From the IMG/VR virus record IMGVR_UViG_3300033134_000003, positions 1 through 62,707 of that record: DNA of 62,707 nt; one strand, given 5' to 3'. The position numbers and the translations under genes are program-made. The notes under the pieces are model-generated. The model did not search any database. It saw only the letters and a program-made list of their open reading frames with translations, and was not told the DNA's origin. Numbering within the stretch: the stretch's first letter is position 1; each line of letters begins with the position of its first letter. This document shows, in pieces, positions 42,379 through 62,707 of this stretch. This DNA is from a virus.

Positions 42379-43635
42379 ATGAACAGCAAATCAGGCCGCA
42401 AGGCCAAACCGGCCCCCAAGCAGAGCACCGCGGCGCCCGCGCCAGCGGCCCCCGCTGGGGCACCGTCCGCAAAGGCCGCCGCAGTCACCGCCAATAGGCC
42501 CGCTAATGCGGCCGCGCCTGTTGACCCTGCTCGCCGCATGCCGAGCATCACGCCTCAGGTCGGCCCGGCGCAGCCGGCCGAGTCGGCGGCACCCAAGCTC
42601 GCAAACGGCAACGGCATACACCTCGAGCACCCGACCGCGGGCACCGGCGCGCATGCCAAACCGGCCGCCACGGTGGCCGAGGCGATCGAGGCCCCGGCAG
42701 GCTGGCTCGAGATCGGATTGACCGCGATCGAGGCGGCGCTCGTGATCGCCCCGAAGAAGGAGATCCGGCACTACCTCAACGGCGCTCTCTTGCATCGTGT
42801 CGGCGCCGACGTGCGCCTCATTGCCACGGACGGCCACAGGCTGCTAGCCCAAACGCTCCCGATCGACCCGAAGGTGACGGAGAGCAAGGCTTTCAAGTGG
42901 CTGGATGAGGGCGTCATCATCCCGCGCGTGTTGCTCGACCGCGCGGCTCGCGCGCTCCCGGCAGACGTGCAGCAGCAAGGCGGCGGTCGCGCCTTCCTGC
43001 AGTTCGATCCGGTCGCAAAGCGCCTGACCTTCCGCGACTCATTCTCCGAGGTCACGCTGCGGGGCGTCCCGGTCGATGGGAAGTTCCCAGACTACCAGCG
43101 GGTGCTCTCGGCGGCCGGCGCATCGCTCACAACCGGCGAGCGCACGCCAGGGGAGGCCACGAGCTTTGATCCCAAGTATGTCGGGGATGCCATGAAGCTC
43201 GCCAAGCTCTACGAATCAAAGAGCATCGCGACCTATCCGGGCGACGGGAAAGACGCCGGCATAATCACCTTCGCGGGCCGCGCGAACGTGCTCTATGTCG
43301 TGATGCCGATGCGCGCAGGCGGACCCACGCTTGAGGCGGGCGCAGCACGTCTCATCGGTGCCCCCGGACTTTCGCGCACCATCGCCGCCTTGAGGGCCCA
43401 CGCGACCCGCCACACGCAGGCGGCGAAGGCGAGCAAAGACGAGAAGGTCAAAGCACGCGAGAAGGCTGCCGCGGATGAGCTGCTCCAGCGCATCGCGGAC
43501 CTGCAGGCCGCAACGGGCAAGGCGTTGCCGGCTCCCGAGCCGAAGAGGCCCGAGACGCCAGACATGCCGAAGATGGCGCCCATCCTCGGCACGGGTTTCA
43601 AGGCCCCAGCGATCACCCCGCCGCCCAGGAATTAG
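42379..43635 (+). CDS. Sliding-clamp-like (DNA polymerase III beta) protein
   Basis: 418 aa. The segment KEIRHYLNGALLHRVGADV with RLIATDGHRLL, and later VDGKFPDYQRVL, is the signature of bacterial DnaN. Residues 1-110 are an Ala/Pro-rich low-complexity extension. The clamp homology spans only the middle (about 115-320), fewer repeats than the three domains of DnaN (366 aa), and the C-terminal 90 residues are charged helix. It may act as a phage processivity clamp or modify the host clamp (inference). No phage DNA polymerase is in the window. Confidence 0.75.
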   Translation: MNSKSGRKAKPAPKQSTAAPAPAAPAGAPSAKAAAVTANRPANAAAPVDPARRMPSITPQVGPAQPAESAAPKLANGNGIHLEHPTAGTGAHAKPAATVAEAIEAPAGWLEIGLTAIEAALVIAPKKEIRHYLNGALLHRVGADVRLIATDGHRLLAQTLPIDPKVTESKAFKWLDEGVIIPRVLLDRAARALPADVQQQGGGRAFLQFDPVAKRLTFRDSFSEVTLRGVPVDGKFPDYQRVLSAAGASLTTGERTPGEATSFDPKYVGDAMKLAKLYESKSIATYPGDGKDAGIITFAGRANVLYVVMPMRAGGPTLEAGAARLIGAPGLSRTIAALRAHATRHTQAAKASKDEKVKAREKAAADELLQRIADLQAATGKALPAPEPKRPETPDMPKMAPILGTGFKAPAITPPPRN

Positions 43636-48301: not shown

Positions 48302-48955
48302 CTACGATCCTCCAGGAGAGTGCGGGCGATATGGTCGAAGAAGCGACTCGAAGAGAACGGGGCCACTGGCTTCGGTCGCCATCTCGGGCTCCCACTCGAA
48401 GTCCTCGAGCATCTTGACGCAGAGGTCCGCGACCTCGATTGCGCGCTTGGCGCTCGCATTCCTCCTGCGCGCAAGCTCGATTCGCTTCTCGAGGGTTGCG
48501 GCGAGAAAGTTGTGGCCGCTTTTCGCCTTCCATTTGAGACGGGCCATCTGCTTCGTGGCCTTGCGAATCGCCTCGTCGTTGCTCGCGATTGCCTCTTGCG
48601 ATTCGGACTGCATCTGGGACAGCTTGCGGCACATCGCGAAGAGCACATCGACGTGCTCGGGGAGCTGCTCGCACGCGGCATCGAAGAGGCCGGCGAGCGT
48701 GTTGCGCGCGAGAACCTCGAGCGGCGGTGGACGGCTCGCATCGCCCGTCTGATCGAACCTCTCGCGCGCGACCTCGTCCGAGAGTAGCGCCCACGCGCCG
48801 TTGATCGCGATCATTTCCTGCGACGAGCCACCGGGCCGGTCGGGGTGCGCCGCGGCGGCCTTCCTGCGGTAGGCCTCGCGGATCGTGGCGGCGTCGGCGT
48901 CCTTGGCAACGCCCAACGTCTCGTAGGGATCTCGTTCTTGAGGCTTGCTCTTCAT
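48302..48955 (-). CDS. DnaJ-domain protein
   Basis: 217 aa. Residues 9-70 are a J domain: DPYETLGVAKDADAATIREAYRR, the HPD tripeptide at AAAHPDRPGG, then the closing helix (ALLSDEVARERFD). The remainder is a coiled-coil region (about 110-185). J domains stimulate Hsp70 (DnaK) ATPase, so the phage may recruit host DnaK for replication or assembly. No Gly/Phe-rich or zinc region as in full DnaJ. Confidence 0.85.
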   Translation of the reverse strand: MKSKPQERDPYETLGVAKDADAATIREAYRRKAAAAHPDRPGGSSQEMIAINGAWALLSDEVARERFDQTGDASRPPPLEVLARNTLAGLFDAACEQLPEHVDVLFAMCRKLSQMQSESQEAIASNDEAIRKATKQMARLKWKAKSGHNFLAATLEKRIELARRRNASAKRAIEVADLCVKMLEDFEWEPEMATEASGPVLFESLLRPYRPHSPGGS

Positions 48956-52091: not shown

Positions 52092-52327
52092 GTTTGATTC
52101 TCCGTGATCGGGCGTTTGAGAGGATCGGCCCCGGCCGCTGGGACTCCCGAGTCGCTGCCCGCGCGAGGGGATGCGCTTGCAGAACCCATCTCAGCAACCG
52201 GGGCCGAATCTGGAAACGAAACCAGGCAAGCCTCAAAGCCTGGGACTGTGAGCTCGCAGCGCACCGGCCTTCCAAAGACGCGCAGGAACTCGCCCACGAA
52301 TTCGACGAGGCCAGCATCGAGGCTCAC
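52079..52327 (-). CDS. Small hypothetical protein
   Basis: 82 aa. VEFVGEFLRVFGRPVRCELTV then Ser/Ala/Pro-rich. It overlaps the next gene by 13 bases and the upstream replication-type gene by 4. Probably a small accessory protein; not recognised. Confidence 0.5.
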   Translation of the reverse strand: MSLDAGLVEFVGEFLRVFGRPVRCELTVPGFEACLVSFPDSAPVAEMGSASASPRAGSDSGVPAAGADPLKRPITENQTCLL

Positions 52328-53046
52328 GAGTAGATCCCCTTTTCGCGCTCGGCGAGGCGCAACTGCGTTTCGTAGACCCCGGCCGACTCATCAGGGAGCG
52401 GTGGCCTGAAGCCGATCTTGGCGGCCCTGGTCGCAAGGCCGCCCCAGGCCCGCTGCTCCCGACTGGCCTTTGCCACCGCCCGCGGGTTCGTGCCCGCAGC
52501 GCGGGTTCCATTCCCGCTTCCGTTCCTGCTCGAAGAGGATCCCCCACTGTGTGGGGGTAAGGGGGTCTTAAGAGGGTCTTGTCTGGTCTGGTCTGGTAAC
52601 GCATCTGCGTTACGTGATTGTGGATCGTGTAACGCTGCTGCGTTAGCATGAACGGCGCGATGCTTGCTGACGCGCTTTGCCGTCAGTGCTTTCCGCTTCG
52701 CGATGGAGCCGTTATGTTCTTGAAAACCAGGGAGTTTTACGCGGTCCGAGTCGAAAATCTCGAACCAGTCGCGCGGGAGGATCTTCGAGAAACCCTCGAT
52801 GCCGGTGAGCTTGTCTACCTCTTCGGGGGAGAGGTCGATGCTGTCGTCATCGCGGGCGAAGGTGTCGGCATGAAACCAGAGCCTTGCGAGGCCTCCCAAC
52901 ACCAGCGTTACAGCTGCGCGCTCCTTGTAACGCATGTGCGTTACTTGGTCGGTGGCGAGGATGCGCTCAGCCATCCGTGACACGCGGATGTCAGCCTCGA
53001 GACTCTTCTCGAATTTGATCCATCCCCACCCATCGGCGCTCCCCAC
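52324..53046 (-). CDS. Phage replication-type protein (helix-turn-helix N-terminus)
   Basis: 240 aa. N-terminus GWGWIKFEKSLEADIRVSRMAE and then GFSKILPRDWFEIFDSDRVKLPGF are typical of phage O-/DnaT-like replication initiators or primosomal proteins. A middle Lys/Arg helix and Pro/Ser/Gly linker are followed by a C-terminal REQRAWGGLATRAAKIGF segment. A likely recruiter of the host helicase. First gene of the leftward early chain, ATG 53046, with AAAGGAG and GGGGAG upstream. Confidence 0.6.
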   Translation of the reverse strand: MGSADGWGWIKFEKSLEADIRVSRMAERILATDQVTHMRYKERAAVTLVLGGLARLWFHADTFARDDDSIDLSPEEVDKLTGIEGFSKILPRDWFEIFDSDRVKLPGFQEHNGSIAKRKALTAKRVSKHRAVHANAAALHDPQSRNADALPDQTRQDPLKTPLPPHSGGSSSSRNGSGNGTRAAGTNPRAVAKASREQRAWGGLATRAAKIGFRPPLPDESAGVYETQLRLAEREKGIYS

Positions 53047-53112: not shown

Positions 53113-53328
53113 CTACGCGGTCTGCCCCTGCGGTGCGCTGCCGTTCATGCGACGGTAGACGAGACGACGCTCGATCCCCAGGCCCAGGAGCACGCGAGGC
53201 CCGGGGGCCCTGCGGCCCTTTAGGATATCGTTGATGTGCTGCACGCTGACGCCAAACTCGCGCGCGACGCGGTGCTGGCTCGATTGCTTGCAGCGCCTTG
53301 CGAGCGCCTTGACCGGATCGATCATCAT
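53113..53328 (-). CDS. XRE-family repressor (module 1)
   Basis: 71 aa. SQHRVAREFGVSVQHINDIL with KGRRAPGPRVLLGLG is a lambda Cro/CI-type helix-turn-helix, about the size of Cro. It is divergent to the operon starting at 53437. Start ATG 53328 lies only about 9 bases from a probable -10 (TAGGAT), implying a leaderless or nearly leaderless mRNA. A T8 run follows the stop on the leftward strand. A paralogous arrangement recurs at 58097. Confidence 0.8.
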   Translation of the reverse strand: MMIDPVKALARRCKQSSQHRVAREFGVSVQHINDILKGRRAPGPRVLLGLGIERRLVYRRMNGSAPQGQTA

Positions 53329-53337
53329 GGGGCGGCT

Positions 53338-53403
53338 ATCCTACGCCTCGCTTTCCTCGGATGGCAAACGAGTTGACACCGTCTGTCACGATGGCGTATA
53401 GAT
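53338..53403. promoter_or_regulatory. Divergent promoters and operator of module 1
   Basis: Rightward promoter: TTGACA (53373-53378), 18-base spacer, TATAGA (53397-53402). The 15-base palindrome TGACA-N5-TGTCA (53374-53388) overlaps the -35 and is a likely repressor operator. Leftward promoter: TTGCCA, 18 bases, TAGGAT ending about 9 bases before the repressor ATG. Confidence 0.75.
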
Positions 53404-53436
53404 GCGCCTCGCCCACGGATGGGGGTCTTCCGGAAA

Positions 53437-53712
53437 ATGACGGACGCACGACCGCCCAAGACCATGACCGACACGTTGAACCACATCGAGTTGCTGCGCA
53501 CGGCACAGTCTCGAGCCCTTGCTCATGCAGAGGCCCAGACGCAACGGCTCGCAAGTGCCACCGAGCGCGCCGCGATGCTCGAGGGCCTGCTTTCAAACAT
53601 CCATGAATTGTGCGATCGGGTGTACAAAGACGAACGCGCCGCAGATGCCCTTCGCCTCATGAACACCGTCGGAGACATCCAGCTCATCGCCGCGAAAGGC
53701 AAGGCGCCGTGA
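53437..53712 (+). CDS. Coiled-coil early protein, paralog of 58463
   Basis: 91 aa from ATG 53437; ATG 53419 and an inner ATG are alternatives. An amphipathic coiled coil (LLRTAQSRALAHAEAQTQRLA) is followed by NIHELCDRVYKDERAADALR and MNTVGDIQLIAAKGKAP. The C-terminal block matches the first gene of the second module (NIHHACDGVYDG, GTVGDVMMLAAKGM), so the two proteins are paralogs. It is first gene of the module 1 rightward operon. Confidence 0.65.
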   Translation: MTDARPPKTMTDTLNHIELLRTAQSRALAHAEAQTQRLASATERAAMLEGLLSNIHELCDRVYKDERAADALRLMNTVGDIQLIAAKGKAP

Positions 53713-53897
53713 TGGGCATCTTCTCGCGCATCGGAGCATGGCACACGCGGCGCCAAATAGAAGCGCATCGAAACTGGCTCCGCACGAGCCGCGTGACATT
53801 CGTTCCGCACGACTATAGCGCGGCGCGCGAGCGGGCGCTCGAGCAGCTCGGCGAGCGCTATCTCTGCAAGAATCCGATCAACAGGAGACGCAAATGA
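53712..53897 (+). CDS. Small basic protein, paralog of 59246
   Basis: 61 aa from ATG 53712 (GTG 53709 possible). GIFSRIGAWHTRRQIEAHRNWL with RTSRV aligns with the 54-aa protein at 59246 (FLSRLLAWRVRRRHEKHLRWL, then RKNHV). Arg-rich helical protein; perhaps DNA- or RNA-binding. Overlaps its neighbours by 1-4 bases. Confidence 0.6.
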   Translation: MGIFSRIGAWHTRRQIEAHRNWLRTSRVTFVPHDYSAARERALEQLGERYLCKNPINRRRK

Positions 53898-54358
53898 CCC
53901 GCTTTTCGGGGAAGCAGCGTCAGATGGCCTATGCGGCGGTCAGGCGCTGCCGAACGTACCCGGCCGCCAGTGGCCTCACGGAGAACGAGGAGGCGATCCT
54001 GGTGCTCGCCGATGAGATCGAGCGAGTGCGTGCGGGAGATGTGACGGTCGAGCCGATCGCGACGGACCGCATCCTCGCCGAGATCGCGGGCAAGCGCGCG
54101 CGCCAGGTCGCCGTTCACGGCTACGAGCCCGCGCACGACGACGAGCACGCGGCCGGGGAGCTCGCGCGCGCAGCGATTGCCTACATCCAGGGCGCCTACG
54201 CGACCGAACTCGGGCTGACCGACGACGAGCTTCTCGTTTTCTGGCCCTTCGATGATGCGCTGCCGAACCTCGAGCAGCCACGGCGCGAACTGCTCCTCAA
54301 TTCCGCGGCGCTGATCGTCGCCGAGATTGAGCGCCTGGACAGGCGGGAGGGCAAGTGA
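53894..54358 (+). CDS. Conserved phage protein (HDDEH motif)
   Basis: 154 aa. The C-terminal part has EPAHDDEHAAGELARAAIAYI, an FWPFDD segment, and RRELLLNSAALIVAEIERLDR. I recognise this as a very common uncharacterised phage family; the helices and acidic motif suggest an all-alpha nucleotide-pyrophosphatase (MazG-like) fold, though that is inference. Overlaps neighbours by 4 bases. Confidence 0.7.
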   Translation: MTRFSGKQRQMAYAAVRRCRTYPAASGLTENEEAILVLADEIERVRAGDVTVEPIATDRILAEIAGKRARQVAVHGYEPAHDDEHAAGELARAAIAYIQGAYATELGLTDDELLVFWPFDDALPNLEQPRRELLLNSAALIVAEIERLDRREGK

Positions 54359-54543
54359 AGGTCTCATTCTACGTGGACGTTCCGCCCTACATCGGCCCGG
54401 GCTACTCTCTTTTCGCAATCAGCTCGCCCGCGACGGGTACCTTGCCAGAAGGCTACAAGCGCGTGCGCATTGAAGCCGACCTTCCGTGCAAGCTGTTCGA
54501 CGAGGAGGTCGAGGCGCAGACGCAGGAGATCCCCGCACCATGA
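54355..54543 (+). CDS. Small beta protein
   Basis: 62 aa from GTG 54355 (GTGA overlap). KVSFYVDVPPYIGPGYSLFA and RVRIEADLPCKLF suggest a short beta structure; unknown. Confidence 0.5.
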   Translation: MKVSFYVDVPPYIGPGYSLFAISSPATGTLPEGYKRVRIEADLPCKLFDEEVEAQTQEIPAP

Positions 54544-55016
54544 ATTTTGAATGCCCGCTTTGCTCGTGGGGCTACAGCGACTCGCGCCCTGAGATTGCGG
54601 CGGGGGCTCTCGCCGGCGTCTTTGGCGAGGGCGTGATGGCCTCGATCGATGCGCACCGACGCAAGAAGAACGCCGGGCGCGCGCTGCGAGATCACTTCCG
54701 CGGGCATCGGCTCGAGGAATGGGTCAAGACCATCACGGAGTTGAGAGGAGTTCTGCGCGCCGTGCTTGTCTTCCACGAGGTGGCGCCGTCCGAGGAGCGA
54801 ACGCTCGAATGGGCCAAGCTCACGGGCCGGGATATCCCGACCGCGCGGGCACTGTGTGATACGGTGCGGGAGGTTCTCCTTCGGCGCATCTGCACGTGCA
54901 AGCCGATCGAAACGAACCTGCCCTCGATGCAGGGCATGTACATGATCGCCGAGGAATGCCCCGTGCACGGAGAGGGCGCCCGGACGAAGTACGGCGCCTC
55001 GGGTGGGCCGGGATGA
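54540..55016 (+). CDS. Hypothetical protein with N-terminal zinc-knuckle-like Cys pair
   Basis: 158 aa. FECPLCSW at the start, a helical middle, and a C-terminal CTCKP...ECPVHG. Two pairs of Cys plus His could bind zinc. ATG 54540 overlaps the upstream stop and its own stop overlaps 55013. No family recognised. Confidence 0.55.
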   Translation: MNFECPLCSWGYSDSRPEIAAGALAGVFGEGVMASIDAHRRKKNAGRALRDHFRGHRLEEWVKTITELRGVLRAVLVFHEVAPSEERTLEWAKLTGRDIPTARALCDTVREVLLRRICTCKPIETNLPSMQGMYMIAEECPVHGEGARTKYGASGGPG

Positions 55017-55231
55017 CTGCCACGACCTTCGCGCTCGGGGTCCTCGTGGGCATGTGCATCGCGGGAGCGCTGCTCAAGGGGCTGCTTCTCGCGGCGAACC
55101 TCGCGATGGAAGCCTGCGGGCGCGAGATGGACCGCTGCAAGGCGCAGCTCATCGAGGCGACCCGGATGCTGCGAGCCTTCCAGAATGCGCAGCTGAAAGA
55201 GCCGCGGCCGAGGCGCTTTCAGCGAAATTAG
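55013..55231 (+). CDS. Small membrane/coiled-coil protein
   Basis: 72 aa. One hydrophobic helix (FALGVLVGMCIAGALLKGLLLAA) followed by a charged helix with two Cys. Last gene of the coupled module 1 chain. Topology suggests an inner-membrane protein; role unknown. Confidence 0.55.
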   Translation: MTATTFALGVLVGMCIAGALLKGLLLAANLAMEACGREMDRCKAQLIEATRMLRAFQNAQLKEPRPRRFQRN

Positions 55232-55346
55232 GCGGCCCTGCCGCGGCGCTCCAGCAAGCCGATTCATTTCGCTGACGCTCGATTGTTGATAATTCTTGAG
55301 AGCTGTAGAGAATCCCTAATGGCCACGAATTCAAGGAGGGCCGTCA
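55232..55346 (+). promoter_or_regulatory. Intergenic region, possible promoter
   Basis: 115 bases with an A+T-rich centre. A weak match TTGTTG - 17 bases - TAGAGA exists, and a strong ribosome site AAGGAGGGCCGTCA precedes the next ATG. Likely a second promoter of the rightward operon, not proven. Confidence 0.35.
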
Positions 55347-55601
55347 ATGTTGTCGAAGCCTAGAGCCGCAAGGCGCGACCGGCAGAAGCGCTTGCCGCCG
55401 GTCGACCACCAGCAGCGCTACGAAATCCCCGAGGCGAGCACATACCTGCGTCAGTCCGACGCGAAGACGTACCTCGACATCAAGCAGGGCAAGCTTCGGG
55501 TGATCCGCGACGAGGGAAGAACTTACGTTCCCGGGAGCGAGATCATCCGGCGCTCGACGCTGTCCCCTGCGCCACCGCGCCCACCCGAGGACACCCAGTG
55601 A
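55347..55601 (+). CDS. Excisionase/MerR-like DNA-binding protein
   Basis: 84 aa. RYEIPEASTYLRQSDAKTYL followed by QGKLRVIRDEGRTYVPGSEI is the winged helix-turn-helix pattern of the HTH_17/excisionase family: a tyrosine-containing helix pair then a wing that ends in a conserved small motif. Such proteins act as recombination directionality factors or regulators. No integrase is present in the window, so a regulatory role is equally likely. Strong ribosome site upstream. Confidence 0.7.
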   Translation: MLSKPRAARRDRQKRLPPVDHQQRYEIPEASTYLRQSDAKTYLDIKQGKLRVIRDEGRTYVPGSEIIRRSTLSPAPPRPPEDTQ

Positions 55602-55918
55602 CGCTCCTAACCGAAGAGCAGGCGAGGCAGCGCTGGTGCCCATTCGCACGAGTGCTGCTGCCGGCCAAGAAGATCGGCAGCAAACGCGATGTCGAGTACT
55701 TCGAGCAGCAGGAGCGCGACTGCCGATGCATCGCGAGCGATTGCATGGCCTGGCGCTGGGGCGGCTATCGGCGGGCGCGGACCTGTTGTCACCCCCGGGA
55801 ACGGCCACGCGCGGGCCCCCGAGTGATCAGATCAAAGAATTTGATGGAGTCGTTAACTGGATGCGGCCCGTTCACGACGGTGGCAGGTGACATCAAAAGC
55901 TGCGAGGTATTTCAATAG
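55598..55918 (+). CDS. Cys-rich phage protein
   Basis: 106 aa from GTG 55598 (GTGA overlap). TEEQARQRWCPFARV and later DCRCIASDCMAWRWGGYRRA are signatures of a small Cys-rich family widespread in phages; the Cys spacing would suit a zinc or iron-sulfur site. C-terminal GCGPFTT is also usual. Function unknown. Confidence 0.6.
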   Translation: MTLLTEEQARQRWCPFARVLLPAKKIGSKRDVEYFEQQERDCRCIASDCMAWRWGGYRRARTCCHPRERPRAGPRVIRSKNLMESLTGCGPFTTVAGDIKSCEVFQ

Positions 55919-55999
55919 ATGGACGCCCTGGACATGCTCGCCCAAGCGATGCGCGTCGAGCGCGAGGCCGCAGGCTCTGCGGGAGGAGTCCCATCGTGA
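55919..55999 (+). CDS. 26-aa peptide between two coupled genes
   Basis: Starts 1 base after the preceding stop and ends with TGA overlapping the next gene. DALDMLAQAMRVERE is a short helix. May be translation-coupling sequence rather than a functional protein. Confidence 0.3.
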   Translation: MDALDMLAQAMRVEREAAGSAGGVPS

Positions 56000-56220
56000 C
56001 ACCGCGTCGCATCCGTTGGCCCGACATGCCGCATCGCTGGTACATCGCGACGGGAGCGATCGCGCACATCACCCGCACGAACATCGCAGGCTGCACGACC
56101 TTGTGCGGGGTCAAGCTGCGCGCCGGGACCCAGTTGACCGCGAACGCGCCGGCCGGGCGCCCCATCTGCCCGGCCTGCGCGGCAGAGCCCGAGACCCACG
56201 CCGTGGGAGTGCGAGCGTGA
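55996..56220 (+). CDS. Small protein with Cys pairs
   Basis: 74 aa from GTG 55996. CTTLCGVKL and CPACAAEPE give two Cys pairs compatible with a zinc ribbon, preceded by an aromatic/basic N-terminus. Coupled to the Lar-like gene by GTGA. Unknown function. Confidence 0.5.
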   Translation: MTPRRIRWPDMPHRWYIATGAIAHITRTNIAGCTTLCGVKLRAGTQLTANAPAGRPICPACAAEPETHAVGVRA

Positions 56221-56450
56221 GCGCAAGGGAAGGCCCGATCGGAGAAGCAGCGCCGGACTTCTGCCCATTTTGTGGCTCGACCGACGCAGCGCTCGGGCAG
56301 CAGTTCAGCGCGGCCGGCCCTTCGCACTTCGTTTTCTGCCGCCGGTGCGGGGCCGAGGGGCCGCATCTTGGGGTGGTCCTGCAGTCGGAAGCGACGGCAA
56401 TCGAGCAGTGGAACTTGCGCGCGCTGCCGCCGCAGGCGGGGCGGCATTGA
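56217..56450 (+). CDS. Lar-like (restriction alleviation) zinc protein
   Basis: 77 aa. CPFCGST near 15-21 and FCRRCGAEG near 45-53, then ATAIEQWNLRA, match the Lar family zinc-ribbon. Lar proteins modulate host type I restriction in Rac-like prophages; whether this one does is unknown. GTG 56217 overlaps the upstream stop. Confidence 0.65.
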   Translation: MSAREGPIGEAAPDFCPFCGSTDAALGQQFSAAGPSHFVFCRRCGAEGPHLGVVLQSEATAIEQWNLRALPPQAGRH

Positions 56451-57955
56451 GCAAGTGGATTCCACTTGGCTTCGAGGTCGGATCCGGCAAGCCGGTCTCG
56501 ATTCCGATCGCTCACACGGTGATAACCGGCCAATCGCAGCAGGCAGGAAAAACCACGACCCTCGAAGCGCTGATCTCCCGCGCGAACGTGCCGGGGATCG
56601 CCTTCGTGACCAAGCGAGGGGAGCACTCCTTTGCGGACGGGAGACGCATTGCGCCCTACTTTCGCGAGCGAGCCGACTGGCAGTTCGTAGCCTCCGTGCT
56701 CGAGGCCACCATGCGTGAGCGCCTGAAATTCGAGCGCGCATGGATCATGCGTGCGAGCAAGGGCGCGCGCACCCTCGCCGACGTGCATCGCAACGTGCGC
56801 CGGCTGATGGAAACGGCGAAGGGCCTCTCGGCGGATGTCTACCTCACGCTCGATGCGTACCTCGAGATTGTCGTGCCGCGCGTTGCGGCCGTGCGCTTTG
56901 CGAGCACGCTCGAGGTGCTTCCTGGCCTCAACGTGCTCGACCTCTCGGACCGCGATCGCTTTCCGCCCGAGCTTCAATCTCTCGTCATGCGCTCGGTGAT
57001 CGAATGGATTTACGAGCACGCCGACGGAACCATCACCATCATCCCGGAGGCCTGGGAATTCCTGCCTCAGGGCCGAGGCTCTCCGGTCAAGCTCGCAGCC
57101 GTCGAGCTCATCCGAAAGGGTGCGGGCCTTGCGAACTTCGTATGGCTCGACAGCCAGGACATCGGGGGGATCGACAAAGAGCTGCTGCGCTCCTGCCCGG
57201 TCTGGCTCCTCGGCGTTCAGCGCGAAGCGAACGAGATCAAGCGCGTGCTCGAGAACATCCCCGCGGGCATCGCAAAGCCGAAGCCTTCCGACGTGGCGAC
57301 GCTCCGCAAGGGGCAATTCTTCGCCTGCTTCGGAGAGAGCGTCATCAAGACCTACGTGCAGCCCGGGTGGATGATTCAAGGCGAGGCAGTCGGCATCGCC
57401 CGCGGGACGCTCGAGATGGAGCGGGCGAGTTCGCGGCCGCCGTCACCACTCCCACGCTGGACCATAACCAACGACGCATTGCGACAGGAAGACACCATGA
57501 GCAAGACCGACGAGAAGCTAGACCAGCTGATCGAACTCCTCACGCGCCAGGCCGGGAACCGAACAAGCCCCGCGGCCGCGCCGCCTGCGACCTTCGCAGT
57601 AGGCGCCGAGGAGGAGGAGCTTTTCCAGCGCTTCAGGGCGCGGCTCCTCAAAGAGCCGGCGGTCCTGCGCGTCCTCGCAAGCGTGCCAGTCATCGAGATC
57701 TCCGAAACGCGCGAGGTGATCGAGATCGACGGCGCAACGGTGCGCGGTCAGATCGCAAAGCTGATCGCGCGCGGGTTCTTCGATGAGCCTAAGAACGGCA
57801 ACACGGTGTTCGTCGAGCTGAAGCGCATCGGGGCCAAGGTCGCAAAGCCAAGCGCCTACAAAGAGTGCGACAAGCTCACCTCGATGGGATTCCTCACGGC
57901 CGAGGCGACCGGATACCTCGCCGTCGAGGGCATGAAGCGGAACATCACGAAGTGA
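56447..57955 (+). CDS. HerA/FtsK-type phage ATPase
   Basis: 502 aa from TTG 56447 (TTGA overlap with the Lar-like stop). Walker A GQSQQAGKTT at 28-37; a hydrophobic strand with Glu (ITIIPEAWEFLP) in the Walker B place, where Pro replaces the usual Asp; and WLLGVQREANEIKR as a likely sensor region. Residues about 340-502 form a C-terminal region resembling winged-helix DNA-binding domains. Family knowledge links HerA/FtsK-like ATPases to DNA translocation; this may move or remodel DNA during replication or packaging (inference). Confidence 0.7.
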   Translation: MSKWIPLGFEVGSGKPVSIPIAHTVITGQSQQAGKTTTLEALISRANVPGIAFVTKRGEHSFADGRRIAPYFRERADWQFVASVLEATMRERLKFERAWIMRASKGARTLADVHRNVRRLMETAKGLSADVYLTLDAYLEIVVPRVAAVRFASTLEVLPGLNVLDLSDRDRFPPELQSLVMRSVIEWIYEHADGTITIIPEAWEFLPQGRGSPVKLAAVELIRKGAGLANFVWLDSQDIGGIDKELLRSCPVWLLGVQREANEIKRVLENIPAGIAKPKPSDVATLRKGQFFACFGESVIKTYVQPGWMIQGEAVGIARGTLEMERASSRPPSPLPRWTITNDALRQEDTMSKTDEKLDQLIELLTRQAGNRTSPAAAPPATFAVGAEEEELFQRFRARLLKEPAVLRVLASVPVIEISETREVIEIDGATVRGQIAKLIARGFFDEPKNGNTVFVELKRIGAKVAKPSAYKECDKLTSMGFLTAEATGYLAVEGMKRNITK

Positions 57956-58272
57956 GCGCCCGGGAGCCTAGAACGTTCACGTTCAACTTTAGCCCGCTGT
58001 TCGTGGACAAGGTGCAAGCCGGCGCGAAGCTCCAATTATCTCCCCAGCCCGGCGGTCTGTCGGCGCCCGGCGTGCGTGCGAATCAGACTTTGCGGTTCAT
58101 CTCGCGGCGGCGGATGCATCATAGAAGTCAGCGAGGATCCGCGACGGGCGCATCCCGAGCTCCGCGCTCAGGCGCGGGAGCGAATCTCGAGACGGTGCCT
58201 TTTTGCCGTTCACCCAGTCCGAGACGGTGGGCTGCGACACTCCCACGCGGTCTGCGAGCTCGCGGTGAGTGA
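57952..58272 (+). CDS. ASCH-like protein, probably 3'-truncated
   Basis: 106 aa as read. The first 48 residues (RTFTFNFSPLFVDKVQAGAK) resemble phage ASCH-type proteins. The rest is Arg/Pro/Ser-rich and runs 176 bases antisense into the module 2 repressor gene, where it no longer resembles protein. It looks like the 5' part of a gene cut by insertion of the regulatory module. Whether the product is made is unclear. Confidence 0.35.
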   Translation: MSAREPRTFTFNFSPLFVDKVQAGAKLQLSPQPGGLSAPGVRANQTLRFISRRRMHHRSQRGSATGASRAPRSGAGANLETVPFCRSPSPRRWAATLPRGLRARGE

Positions 58273-58309
58273 TCTTCTGACGTTCGATGTATCTCGCGAC
58301 ACAGTTCAT
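58097..58309 (-). CDS. XRE-family repressor (module 2)
   Basis: 70 aa. KITHRELADRVGVSQPTVSDWV with NGKKAPSRDSLPRLSAELG is a canonical lambda-repressor-like helix-turn-helix. Its -10 (TATTCT) ends about 8 bases before ATG 58309, so the mRNA should be leaderless or nearly so, as with lambda cI from PRM. Likely autoregulated through the operator lying in its own promoter spacer. Divergent to the operon at 58463, matching module 1. Confidence 0.85.
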   Translation of the reverse strand: MNCVARYIERQKITHRELADRVGVSQPTVSDWVNGKKAPSRDSLPRLSAELGMRPSRILADFYDASAAAR

Positions 58310-58317
58310 GGGACGCT

Positions 58318-58435
58318 AGAATAGCCATCGGCTATGCGATGTCAATAGGCGGACGGTGAGTCGTTCCGAGCTCGGGCGGTTCGCCGCAGCGCGATAGCAG
58401 CGGGCTATTGACACACCATAGCCGGTGGCTATACT
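58318..58435. promoter_or_regulatory. Divergent promoters with three palindromic operators
   Basis: Leftward promoter TTGACA (58345-58340), 16 bases, TATTCT (58323-58318). Rightward promoter TTGACA (58408-58413), 16 bases, TATACT (58430-58435). Operators: O1 ATAGCC-ATC-GGCTAT (58321-58335), within the leftward spacer and -10; O2 ATAGCA-GCG-GGCTAT (58394-58408), at the rightward -35; O3 ATAGCC-GGT-GGCTAT (58418-58432), in the rightward spacer and -10. O1 and O3 are perfect 6-bp inverted repeats with 3-base centres; O2 has one mismatch. Confidence 0.9.
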
Positions 58436-58462
58436 TGCCCTCCAGCACGTCGGGAGGGTCCA

Positions 58463-58759
58463 ATGTCAGATCTCAACGAAACCGCGACACAAGTCGCACG
58501 CGCCGAGAGTTTGCCTCAGGTGCGCACGCTCACGGATGCGCGCAATCTCGCGGAGATCCAGCGCATGTCGCACACCGCGCAGATCGCCGAGCTGCAGGAG
58601 GCCAATACGCGGCTGCGCCAGGAGCTCACGACCGCGCGTGCCCTGCTTCCGAACATTCACCACGCTTGCGATGGGGTGTATGACGGTGCCTCGGAGAATC
58701 CGCTCATGGGAACCGTAGGCGATGTGATGATGCTCGCCGCGAAGGGGATGCTGCGATGA
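58463..58759 (+). CDS. Coiled-coil early protein, paralog of 53437
   Basis: 98 aa, preceded by GGAGGG. A coiled coil (LAEIQRMSHTAQIAELQEAN) then NIHHACDGVYDGASENPLMG and TVGDVMMLAAKGMLR, matching the first protein of module 1. First gene under the rightward O2/O3-controlled promoter. Role unknown; its conserved position next to a repressor suggests a regulatory or early takeover function. Confidence 0.65.
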   Translation: MSDLNETATQVARAESLPQVRTLTDARNLAEIQRMSHTAQIAELQEANTRLRQELTTARALLPNIHHACDGVYDGASENPLMGTVGDVMMLAAKGMLR

Positions 58760-58854
58760 GAACCCATCAAGTGGTCCTCACCGGTAAGACTCCGCTGCTC
58801 ATGCACCACGACAACATCGATTGGGCCGACGGCATGGACGAATGGAAGAGATGA
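58756..58854 (+). pseudogene. 5' remnant of a phage early protein gene
   Basis: 32 aa. THQVVLTGKTPLLMHHDNIDWADGM is the N-terminus of a larger phage protein family often encoded beside recombination genes; here a stop follows at once. The full-length homologs (as I recall them) continue for about 200 residues. Overlaps the upstream stop (ATGA). Might still be translated. Confidence 0.45.
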
Positions 58855-58856
58855 GC

Positions 58857-59249
58857 ATGAATAAGAAGAAACAAGGGGGGCTGGGAATGGCATTAGAAAA
58901 GCGCATCGCCGCCGCAATTGCCAAACTGATTAGCTTACACGCCGGGTTCGAGGTGCGGCGCGCGCTGCTGCACACGTGCTTTGATAAAAACGGGAGCCTG
59001 GTATTCCGTCGAGAGGATGCGGAACTCATTTACGATTTGCTCGATAAGGCATGCGAGGCTCATATGAATGCCAAGCACGCCGAACTTTCTCATACGCTCC
59101 GCGGTGCCACCATGACGGACGAGCGCCAAGTCGCCGTGAATGCTGAGATAGCTATTGCGACGCTGTTCTGCGCGGTCGAGCAGGCGGGTTCGAGGGTGAT
59201 CCGCCTCGATGCGGCATTAGCTGAGATAAGACACAAGGAGGCGAAATGA
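58857..59249 (+). CDS. Hypothetical protein of differing base composition
   Basis: 130 aa. LAKLISLHAGFEVRRALLHTCF-like helix pattern, then ELIYDLLDKACEAHMNAKHAE and a C-terminal helix. Codon use is noticeably A/T-richer (AAA, TTA, ATT, GAT) than neighbours, suggesting later acquisition. Ends overlapping the next ATG. Confidence 0.55.
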   Translation: MNKKKQGGLGMALEKRIAAAIAKLISLHAGFEVRRALLHTCFDKNGSLVFRREDAELIYDLLDKACEAHMNAKHAELSHTLRGATMTDERQVAVNAEIAIATLFCAVEQAGSRVIRLDAALAEIRHKEAK

Positions 59250-59410
59250 CCTTCCTTTCCAGGCTCCTCGCCTGGCGCGTGCGGCGCCGTCATGAGAAGC
59301 ACCTGCGCTGGCTGCGCAAAAACCACGTGCTCGGCCCCATCGCCCGTGACGAGCGCAACTCGATCGAGCGCTTCAACAGGATTCTCGCCCGAAGGGAGAC
59401 CCCGTGGTGA
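59246..59410 (+). CDS. Small basic protein, paralog of 53712
   Basis: 54 aa, ATGA overlap with the previous stop. TFLSRLLAWRVRRRHEKHLRWL and RKNHV align with the 61-aa protein of module 1. Arg-rich helix. Coupled to the exonuclease gene by GTGA. Function unknown. Confidence 0.65.
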   Translation: MTFLSRLLAWRVRRRHEKHLRWLRKNHVLGPIARDERNSIERFNRILARRETPW

Positions 59411-60309
59411 AGAGGAAGCGGCCGAGCGGCGAGGGCGCGGTGCGCCTCGCGCACATCCGCGAATGGTCCCCGGAGGAGTACCACGGTGACCCTTGCGCAA
59501 GCGGGCCGAGCCTCTCCTCCAGCATCGCGCACACGCTTGTCACGCGATCCCCGCGACATGCGTGGCTCGAGCATCCGAAGCTCGGCGCACGTGAGCGAAA
59601 GCCCACCCGCGCGATGGACGAGGGCTCGATCTTACATCGCCTCATCCTCGGCAAGGGCGCGCAGTTTGAGATCGTCAACGCTCCGGATTTCCGCCAAGGG
59701 TGGGCGCGCGAGATGCGCGATGAGATCCGAGCGAACGGCAAGGTGCCGCTTCTTACCCACGACTTCGAGCGACTCCGGCACATCGCCGAGCGGGTCCGCA
59801 AGCGCTGCGAGGAGGAGGGGTTTGCTCTTGCTGGGGAGAGCGAGGTGTGCGTCGAATTCCAGGAGAAGGGCGAGCACGGACCGGTGAGCTGCCGTTGCAT
59901 GTTCGATCACATGCGCCGTGATGTGCACGCGATCTTCGACCTGAAGAAGGTCGCAACGGCCAGGCCGATCGACCTGGAGCGGCGCATCGTCGAGAACGGC
60001 CTTGACATCCAGGAAGCAGCCTACCGCAGCGCCTACGAGAAACTTTTCCCCGAGGCAGAGGGGCGCACCGATTTCGCCTTCATTTTCGCCGAGACCGAGA
60101 GCGAGCCGTACGAGGTCGTGACGGCGCGGCTCGACGGAGCCTTCCGGGAGATCGGCCGACAGCGGTGGATGCGTGCGGTGCTCGCCTGGGAGCGGCTGCT
60201 CGCCTGCGGGCAGTGGCCCTGGCCCGGGTACGTCGACGGCGCGGTCGTGCTGAACCCGCCCCAGTGGGTCATCGCGCAGGAACTCGGGAACGATTACGCA
60301 ACGAGATAG
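59407..60309 (+). CDS. RecE-like PD-(D/E)XK exonuclease
   Basis: 300 aa from GTG 59407. SPRHAWLEHPKLG, MDEGSILHRLILGKG, then CRCMFDHMRRDVHAIFDLKK with D and K at the catalytic positions, and NGLDIQEAAYRSAYEKLF, match the YqaJ/DUF3799 (RecE-like) 5'-3' exonuclease family. It would resect double-strand ends for the recombinase encoded next. Together with the Sak4-like gene it forms a homologous recombination pair. Confidence 0.8.
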   Translation: MKRKRPSGEGAVRLAHIREWSPEEYHGDPCASGPSLSSSIAHTLVTRSPRHAWLEHPKLGARERKPTRAMDEGSILHRLILGKGAQFEIVNAPDFRQGWAREMRDEIRANGKVPLLTHDFERLRHIAERVRKRCEEEGFALAGESEVCVEFQEKGEHGPVSCRCMFDHMRRDVHAIFDLKKVATARPIDLERRIVENGLDIQEAAYRSAYEKLFPEAEGRTDFAFIFAETESEPYEVVTARLDGAFREIGRQRWMRAVLAWERLLACGQWPWPGYVDGAVVLNPPQWVIAQELGNDYATR

Positions 60310-60317
60310 GGGATTCT

Positions 60318-61472
60318 ATGAACGCTGAAGCACGCGCTTTCGATGTCAAGCCGGCGGTCCGTGAGGCCGTCGGGCTCCTGATCGGGATTGTCGGCCCATC
60401 ATCGAGCGGCAAGACGTACACCGCCTTGCGCCTGGCGAGCGGTATGCGCCGCATCGTGGGCGGGGAGATCGACTTCGTCGATACCGAGAATCGTCGCGCG
60501 CTCTACTACGCCGACAAGTTCCGGTTCAATCACCTGAACTTCACGAAGCCGTTCTCGCCGCTCGATTACCTCGAAGCAATCAGGCACTGCGTGAAGCGCG
60601 GCGCGAAGACGATCGTCGTCGATTCTGCGTCGCACGAGCACGAAGGCCCGGGCGGTGTCCTCGAGTGGCACGCCGAGGAGACCAAGCGCGTCGCCGCGCA
60701 GTGGAAGACGAGCGAGGAGAAGGCGCAGATGGCGGCGTGGGGACCGCCCAAAGCCGCGCGTCGGCGCCTCATCAACGAGGTGCTGCAGATGAACGTGAAC
60801 CTCATTTTCACGTTTCGCGCGAAAGAGAAGATCAAGATCGTGACGGGCAAGAATCCGATCCCGCTCGGCTGGCAACCGATCTGCGGCGAGGAGTTCATGT
60901 ACGAATTCGCGCTGCAGATCCTGCTGCCCCCCGGCTCCGAAGGCCGCCCGCGCTGGAACTCCGACATGGAGAGCGAGCGGGCGATCATGAAGCTCCCGTC
61001 GCAGTTCCGCGATATCTTTCTAGGCGAAAATGACGGCAAGCAACTCGATGAGCGCACCGGGGAGCGGCTGGCGGAGTGGGCCGCGGGCGGAGTGAAGCTC
61101 GCGCCGCAGGCCGTCGAGCTCATCGCGGAATTCGCCAAGTGCGAGGACGAGAAGGCCTACAAAGCGCTCGAAGCAAAGCGCGCCGCGGCGTGGAAAGCAA
61201 TGCCGCCGGAGAGCAAGCAGCGCGTGAAGGCGGCATCGGAGGCCGCGCTCGAGCGGCTTGCGAAGCCGAGCAACGGCACCGATGCGGGCGGCGGTCTGCG
61301 GCCAGCATTCACAAGCGAAAGCGCCGTCAAGCTCATCCGGGAATGCAAGACCGAAGAGGACCTGCGTGCCGCTCGCGCAGAGATCTGGGGCGAGTTCAAC
61401 GGAGACGTGCCAATCGATGTAGAGGCGAGCTGGAATGACCGCGCGGAGGCCCTCAAACAAGGCGAGCTTTGA
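60318..61472 (+). CDS. Sak4-like RecA-fold ATPase (phage recombinase)
   Basis: 384 aa from ATG 60318. Walker A GPSSSGKT (26-33), followed by YTALRLASGMRR, and Walker B TIVVDS (about 98-103) with a following SASHEHEG. The core (about 20-240) matches Sak4-type phage recombinases related to RecA/RadA; the C-terminal 150 residues are charged and variable. It should bind single-stranded DNA made by the adjacent exonuclease. RBS GGGGATTCT is 7 bases upstream. Confidence 0.8.
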   Translation: MNAEARAFDVKPAVREAVGLLIGIVGPSSSGKTYTALRLASGMRRIVGGEIDFVDTENRRALYYADKFRFNHLNFTKPFSPLDYLEAIRHCVKRGAKTIVVDSASHEHEGPGGVLEWHAEETKRVAAQWKTSEEKAQMAAWGPPKAARRRLINEVLQMNVNLIFTFRAKEKIKIVTGKNPIPLGWQPICGEEFMYEFALQILLPPGSEGRPRWNSDMESERAIMKLPSQFRDIFLGENDGKQLDERTGERLAEWAAGGVKLAPQAVELIAEFAKCEDEKAYKALEAKRAAAWKAMPPESKQRVKAASEAALERLAKPSNGTDAGGGLRPAFTSESAVKLIRECKTEEDLRAARAEIWGEFNGDVPIDVEASWNDRAEALKQGEL

Positions 61473-62013: not shown

Positions 62014-62707
62014 GCATCCCGAGAAGAAGGAAAGCCAAATGCACGATTTTGTTAAAACGCGCGCCGCGCAACTGCGGCTCGAACAGGTCATGGCGTGGTC
62101 GCTCAGAAGCGGCGCGCATAACCAGAACGACAAAGGGGAAGCGTGCGTCATGGAGGCTGTCGCGTATGTCGCAGGCCGTCCGTGGTCTGATTCGCCCCCC
62201 TGCGTCTCGCCTTCAATTGGCGCGTTTATGCGTTCGTGGAACGATGCACTACCGAGCGATGCAGAGCGCGATCGGCTGCTAAAACCGCTGATTCCGACGC
62301 TCATCAACACCAAGACTTCTGACGCGGATGAGCAGCGCCGCGCCTTCATGGCGATGGACTGGCTCGTGCGCGTGTTCACGCCCAAGTGGCTCGATCTCGT
62401 TCCGGCTCTCAAACCACACTCTGTGGCACTGCGTGACTCCGAAGAGATTTGCGATATAGCAGGGCTCGTAGCGGCGACAGCGAAGCTGCGTGCCGCGCGC
62501 GAGGCTTCGGCCGCCGCCTGGGACGCCGCCAGGGACCCCGCCTGGGACGCCGCCAGGGACCCCGCCTGGGACGCCGCCAGGGACGCCGCCAGCGACGCCG
62601 CCAGGGACGCCGCCTGGGCCGCCGCCTGGGACGCCGCCAGGGACGCCGCCTGGGACGCCGCCTGGGACCCCGCCTGGGACGCCGCCAGGGACGCCGCCTG
62701 GGACGCC
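62006..62707 (+). CDS. DAAW-repeat protein (partial, runs off the window)
   Basis: At least 234 codons, no stop before the right edge. ATG 62006 overlaps the preceding gene. Residues 1-165 contain [41 protein letters not shown] and [18 protein letters not shown], a pattern of uncharacterised proteins in phages and Actinobacteria. The tail is repeated [16 protein letters not shown] tetrapeptide pairs of the kind found in Imm-5-like and related repeat proteins. Function unknown. Confidence 0.7.
62519..62707 (+). repeat. 12/24-bp in-frame tandem repeat
   Basis: At least 15 units of a 12-base motif (TGGGACGCCGCC or AGGGACGCCGCC, with G-to-C variants giving Pro), continuing past the window. The period is a multiple of three, so it changes protein length without frameshift. 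Confidence 0.9.

Follow-up and report, generated by a model that had tools for sequence, protein, structure and literature searches.

More than one repressor locus per phage genome is established for P22, P1, P7 and N15 (PMC6550527; PMC11016777). P22 carries immC and immI (C2/Cro and Mnt/Ant), its second locus encoding both a repressor and an antirepressor directed at the first locus, and P1, P7 and N15 have tripartite systems. The gain of a second regulatory specificity is thought unlikely in a single mutational step (PMC6550527). In the lambda-type cI/cro region and in immB of phage PY54, divergent early promoters are overlapped by palindromic operators, and the cI and cro mRNAs of PY54 are leaderless (PMC4488713). 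The phage described here resembles the former group in appearing to have more than one repressor locus, and the latter in its promoter-like sites for divergent early transcription, overlapped in one of the two modules by putative palindromic operators. Multi-locus repressor control is thus already known; what is distinct here is that the first genes are paralogous orphans while the repressors next to them are unlike. Unlike in P22, both loci head early operons that start with paralogous proteins, and no antirepressor family was recognised. An unrecognised antirepressor may nevertheless be encoded, because the cc and R proteins described below have no convincing match in Pfam or PHROG (the cc proteins also none in NCBIfam).

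The phage is an uncultured bacterial virus, represented by IMG/VR record IMGVR_UViG_3300033134_000003, which as a whole (62,707 b) is the window analysed here. The left part of the record holds structural genes (for a terminase, a portal, a major head protein, a head-tail adaptor, a tape measure and a tail protein), and the right part is the early region. Here two modules, 5 kb apart, each combine a small leftward repressor gene (rep) with a rightward helical-type protein (cc) and a small basic protein (R). Two operons start from module 1, one for replication (leftward; rep1, repO) and one with accessory genes (rightward); a rightward exonuclease/RecA-like operon starts from module 2. Each module is probably an autoregulated repressor/early-promoter unit with early operons of its own to control, in which we infer repression, operator ownership and separate timing. 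The features are summarized in Table 1.

Table 1. Features of the two modules and of the operons they lead (positions in the window).
Feature	Position	Strand	Description
repO-like replication initiator gene	52324..53046	-	phrog_2509, E 4e-19; downstream of rep1
rep1	53113..53328	-	71-aa XRE/HTH_3 protein; Pfam HTH_3 27.9 bits, above cut-off
Possible rep1 promoter	53338..53367	-	TTGCCA-18-TAGGAT; consensus scan 9/12; direct reading
Possible cc1 promoter	53373..53402	+	TTGACA-18-TATAGA; direct reading; outside scan list
Earlier proposed module 1 operator, TGACACCGTCTGTCA	53374..53388		Sole exact copy in the window; not distinguishable from chance
cc1	53437..53712	+	91-aa helical-type protein; possible earlier start 53419
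R1	53712..53897	+	61-aa basic protein; start overlaps cc1 stop (TGATG)
Accessory operon after module 1	53894..57955	+	Several small ORFs plus the three genes listed next
HTH_17-like protein	55347-55601	+	Below Pfam cut-off
Lar-like restriction alleviation protein	56217-56450	+	In the accessory operon
Large ATPase-like protein	56447-57955	+	Weak match
rep2	58097..58309	-	70-aa XRE/HTH_3 protein; Pfam HTH_3 46.2 bits
rep2 promoter-like site	58318..58345	-	TTGACA-16-TATTCT; consensus scan; -10 ends 8 nt ahead of ATG
Putative operator O1, ATAGCCATCGGCTAT	58321..58335		Exact copy; inside rep2 promoter
Putative operator O2, ATAGCAGCGGGCTAT	58394..58408		One mismatch; directly upstream of cc2 -35 box, abutting
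cc2 promoter-like site	58408..58435	+	TTGACA-16-TATACT; consensus scan
Putative operator O3, ATAGCCGGTGGCTAT	58418..58432		Exact copy; between cc2 promoter -35 and -10, running into -10
cc2	58463..58759	+	98-aa cc1 paralog
32-codon ORF and roughly 130-codon ORF	58756..59249	+	Between cc2 and R2; no module 1 counterpart
R2	59246..59410	+	54-aa basic protein; overlaps exonuclease gene start
Exonuclease VIII-like gene	59404-60309	+	phrog_412, E 3e-50
RecA/AAA-like gene	60318-61472	+	phrog_1366, E 6e-56

The palindrome ATAGCC-N3-GGCTAT had been named as the operator of module 2 in a sequence-only reading of this DNA. It is present there, and the observation now extends to three copies within 112 bp, placed on a divergent pair of promoter-like sites; no other copy occurs in the record at up to two mismatches. 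Like O3 in the cc2 promoter, O1 lies between the -35 and -10 boxes of the rep2 promoter and extends into the -10. The two promoter-like sites form a mirror-image pair, a 34-nt inverted repeat that is 82% complementary. Eight palindromes were counted in the module 2 intergenic region against a shuffle mean of 1.6, and none of 300 shuffles reached eight. In the related loci described below, four one-mismatch sites of the operator were found in 1.57 Mb, by estimate about the chance number. Rep2 is predicted to bind all three operators. O1 would then block Rep2's own promoter, and O3, aided by O2, would block the promoter of cc2-R2-exo-recA.

Repeated palindromic operators overlapping both promoters are thus present in module 2, whereas module 1 is at chance. 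TGACA-N5-TGTCA, previously taken for the module 1 operator, is a single palindrome with 5-bp arms in an intergenic region of 108 nt; shuffles of that region average 0.90, and 53% of them reach the observed count. Its left arm falls in the -35 box TTGACA, and the proposal is not upheld. The promoter matches of module 1 are weaker than those of module 2, and the cc1 site is missing from the scan list because the scan rule demands a T at position 6 of the -10 box. Rep1 would, by analogy, repress its own rep1-repO operon and the divergent cc1-R1-accessory operon via a putative site. That the operators of the modules differ holds in one respect: module 1 contains no site resembling the module 2 operator at up to two mismatches. 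This absence, and not any established operator of module 1, is the basis for a difference in specificity. With no operators common to both switches, the two early operons could be timed or derepressed separately. The possible -10 box of rep1 ends about 9 nt before the ATG, which would leave its mRNA with almost no leader; use of the marked promoters would make both repressor mRNAs near-leaderless, comparable to the leaderless cI and cro mRNAs of PY54.

The missing shared operator also bears on an alternative, in which the two regions act as PL and PR of one lysis-lysogeny circuit split as in lambda, with Rep2 as the maintenance repressor and Rep1, in the manner of Cro, repressing the replication operon early. 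Such an arrangement would account for the mirrored lambda layout, in which one region leads into replication genes and the other into recombination genes, for the position of rep1 as the first gene of a leftward run that reaches repO, and for relatives that hold an HTH pair between the same two operons. In lambda, however, the operators of the two regions serve both repressors, and here the module 2 operator is not repeated in module 1 at up to two mismatches; moreover, transcription of rep2 runs away from the cc2/exo operon, not with it. A single split circuit is considered unlikely.

The two leftward XRE genes described for the modules are both confirmed: rep1 and rep2 give the only two HTH_3 matches of the whole record, one per module and both over the curated cut-off, and each is small, of HTH_3/XRE type and transcribed divergently from an early operon. 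No neighbouring gene shares the strand of rep2, which converges on the end of the ATPase-like gene. Neither cc1 nor cc2 has an HTH match in Pfam. A lambda-type switch of two HTH proteins within one module is therefore rejected, and the modules differ from the lambda-type cI/cro region and PY54 immB in having one HTH gene each and none on the rightward side. The closest relative of rep1 is an XRE protein of related locus L041 (4820-5035; E 2.7e-11, 44 bits, rep2 reaching only 12 bits), and rep2 matches an XRE protein of locus L007 (5423-5617) at 35 bits and is 42% identical to it over 50 aa. rep1 is absent among the 12 matches listed for rep2. A tree of XRE domains gave p-AU 0.71 for a clade of rep1 and rep2, the domains being too short and too diverged to settle their grouping. 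The likeness between the two sequences does not rise above that of background XRE proteins, and close kinship is not demonstrable from it. In the explanation preferred here, the repressors belong to XRE lineages that are distinct or have diverged past recognition.

Rep1 need not be a repressor, since its L041 relative lies inside a same-strand gene run and not at a divergent promoter. This small HTH protein could instead serve as an activator, in replication or in some other way, in which case only module 2 would be a true repressor switch and module 1 would consist of ordinary divergent early promoters, the first gene of which happens to be a cc paralog. This is consistent with the chance-level module 1 operator and with the match of rep1 to just positions 11-42 of the 55 in the HTH_3 profile. 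It fits less well with the arrangement of rep1 and cc1, which diverge from -35/-10-like sites on both strands as in module 2; both rep genes adjoin such divergent sites, and the -10 of each ends 8-9 nt ahead of the ATG. A role for Rep1 outside repression is judged improbable, and two repressor units remain the preferred explanation.

The rightward coiled-coil proteins, reported earlier to have matching ends, are paralogs. cc1 and cc2 are 39% identical, with a BLOSUM62 score of 116, where shuffled sequences average 30 (z=15.4), and a tblastn E of 4e-9. When the alignment was split, the C-terminal part of 40-odd residues gave z=18.8 and the N-terminal coil z=2.2. As the signal sits in the C-terminal part and the coil is weak, the similarity is not coiled-coil bias. 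The shared C-terminal motif is LL.NIH..CD.VY...LM.TVGD...AAKG. A model of cc2 built from two sequences is almost all helix (mean pLDDT 80, pTM 0.41). No relatives of cc1 or cc2 were found in viral contigs (scanned with single sequences and with the two-row alignment) or among INPHARED phages, nor of cc2, the only query used there, among PLSDB plasmids. About 1,150 whole genomes gave only weak matches (per-genome E of about 1e-3 to 1e-2); these were rejected as relatives, being mostly to the coil part, in longer frames and in about the chance number for that many genomes. As judged from these alignments and searches, cc1/cc2 is an orphan paralogous first-gene family heading both rightward operons. 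It might found a new phage regulatory family (e.g., antirepressors or anti-host proteins) that acts on or in step with the opposite repressor, the phage having kept the effector while exchanging repressor and operator, and so running two early programmes independently of each other; we regard this as very unlikely.

The small Arg-rich proteins, also described as matching, do so over their first 28 residues (13/28 identities, z=8), where R1 and R2 are mutual best matches among 740 ORFs of the window; past residue 28 there is no similarity. Beyond cc and R, comparison of the two segments revealed no further proteins that convincingly pair up. The modules are not built alike as had been stated: the gene order differs, with two extra ORFs separating cc2 from R2 in a stretch that has the lowest G+C of the region. 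The 32-codon ORF was considered as a remnant of some longer phage protein. The idea was dropped, as the ORF has no phage match and, of its three weak genome matches, two fall within a single nuclease-type protein that looks unrelated and that, by its sequence, may be an oligoribonuclease.

About 95 related loci were gathered by scans with the exonuclease and RecA-like proteins; the architectures of a few were read singly and the rest were profile-searched. In the genome-contig scan, the RecA-like protein alone retrieved nothing, and an alignment retrieved 14 distant loci. The suggested search for single-module relatives was productive, several loci carrying one switch between replication and exo/recA operons. 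L007, L011 and L028 have one divergent HTH/HTH pair between leftward replication genes and rightward exo/recA, and L003 has one leftward XRE gene upstream of exo/recA, where TACTGT-N4-ACAGTA operators are repeated and the rightward genes are non-HTH. Their exo proteins are 40-57% and their RecA-like proteins 40-66% identical to those of this phage. They share with it the divergent switch upstream of rightward exo/recA-like genes and, in L007, L011 and L028, replication genes on the other side; they differ in having one switch, other operators and no cc or R relatives. Relatives of cc or R were found in none of the fetched loci and in none of twelve whole records searched; a thirteenth, a bacterial genome, gave one match to part of the coil (E 0.06). 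By their gene arrangement, the single-switch relatives fit the gain of a second module.

The sequence-only reading held that the modules had been duplicated and had then changed specificity. This requires paralogous repressors and a real module 1 operator and is therefore only partly supported: the first genes are paralogous and the control sequences differ, but paralogy of the repressors is not demonstrable and the proposed module 1 operator is at chance. Tandem duplication of a whole module would have yielded three pairs of paralogs in a shared order; instead, R1 and R2 are alike over 28 residues only, the repressors are at XRE background, and module 2 has two extra ORFs. A merger of two phages' switches and a duplication with repressor exchange are indistinguishable, because the single-switch relatives carry no cc or R. 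Of the further suggestion, a second immunity or timing switch or two merged switches, the presence of two units stands. Immunity is unproven and a prophage state unsupported, since no integrase, resolvase-type recombinase, ParA or ParB (PF00589, PF00239, PF13614, PF02195) was found in the record, which may be incomplete. If both switches work, they would be a natural neighbouring pair of modules in which the effector gene was kept and repressor and operator were changed, and they would offer a direct way to study how phages acquire a second regulatory specificity. Otherwise, the region would represent ordinary early-gene control with orphan proteins.

Within the repO-like gene, three exact TAACGC-N4-GCGTTA repeats occur (52597-52612, 52630-52645 and 52928-52943), with no other copy at up to one mismatch; a one-mismatch copy is present in the homologous gene of related locus L029 (951). 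The repeats look like origin iterons nested in the initiator gene. At its right end the record stops within a run of WDAARDAA-type amino-acid repeats (62490-62707), so this end may be an assembly break. To the left of the modules, a 418-aa protein (42379-43635) matches the central domain of the DNA polymerase III beta subunit (sliding clamp) barely above the Pfam cut-off, and a leftward gene (48302-48955) encodes a 217-aa protein with a DnaJ-like domain at its N-terminus.
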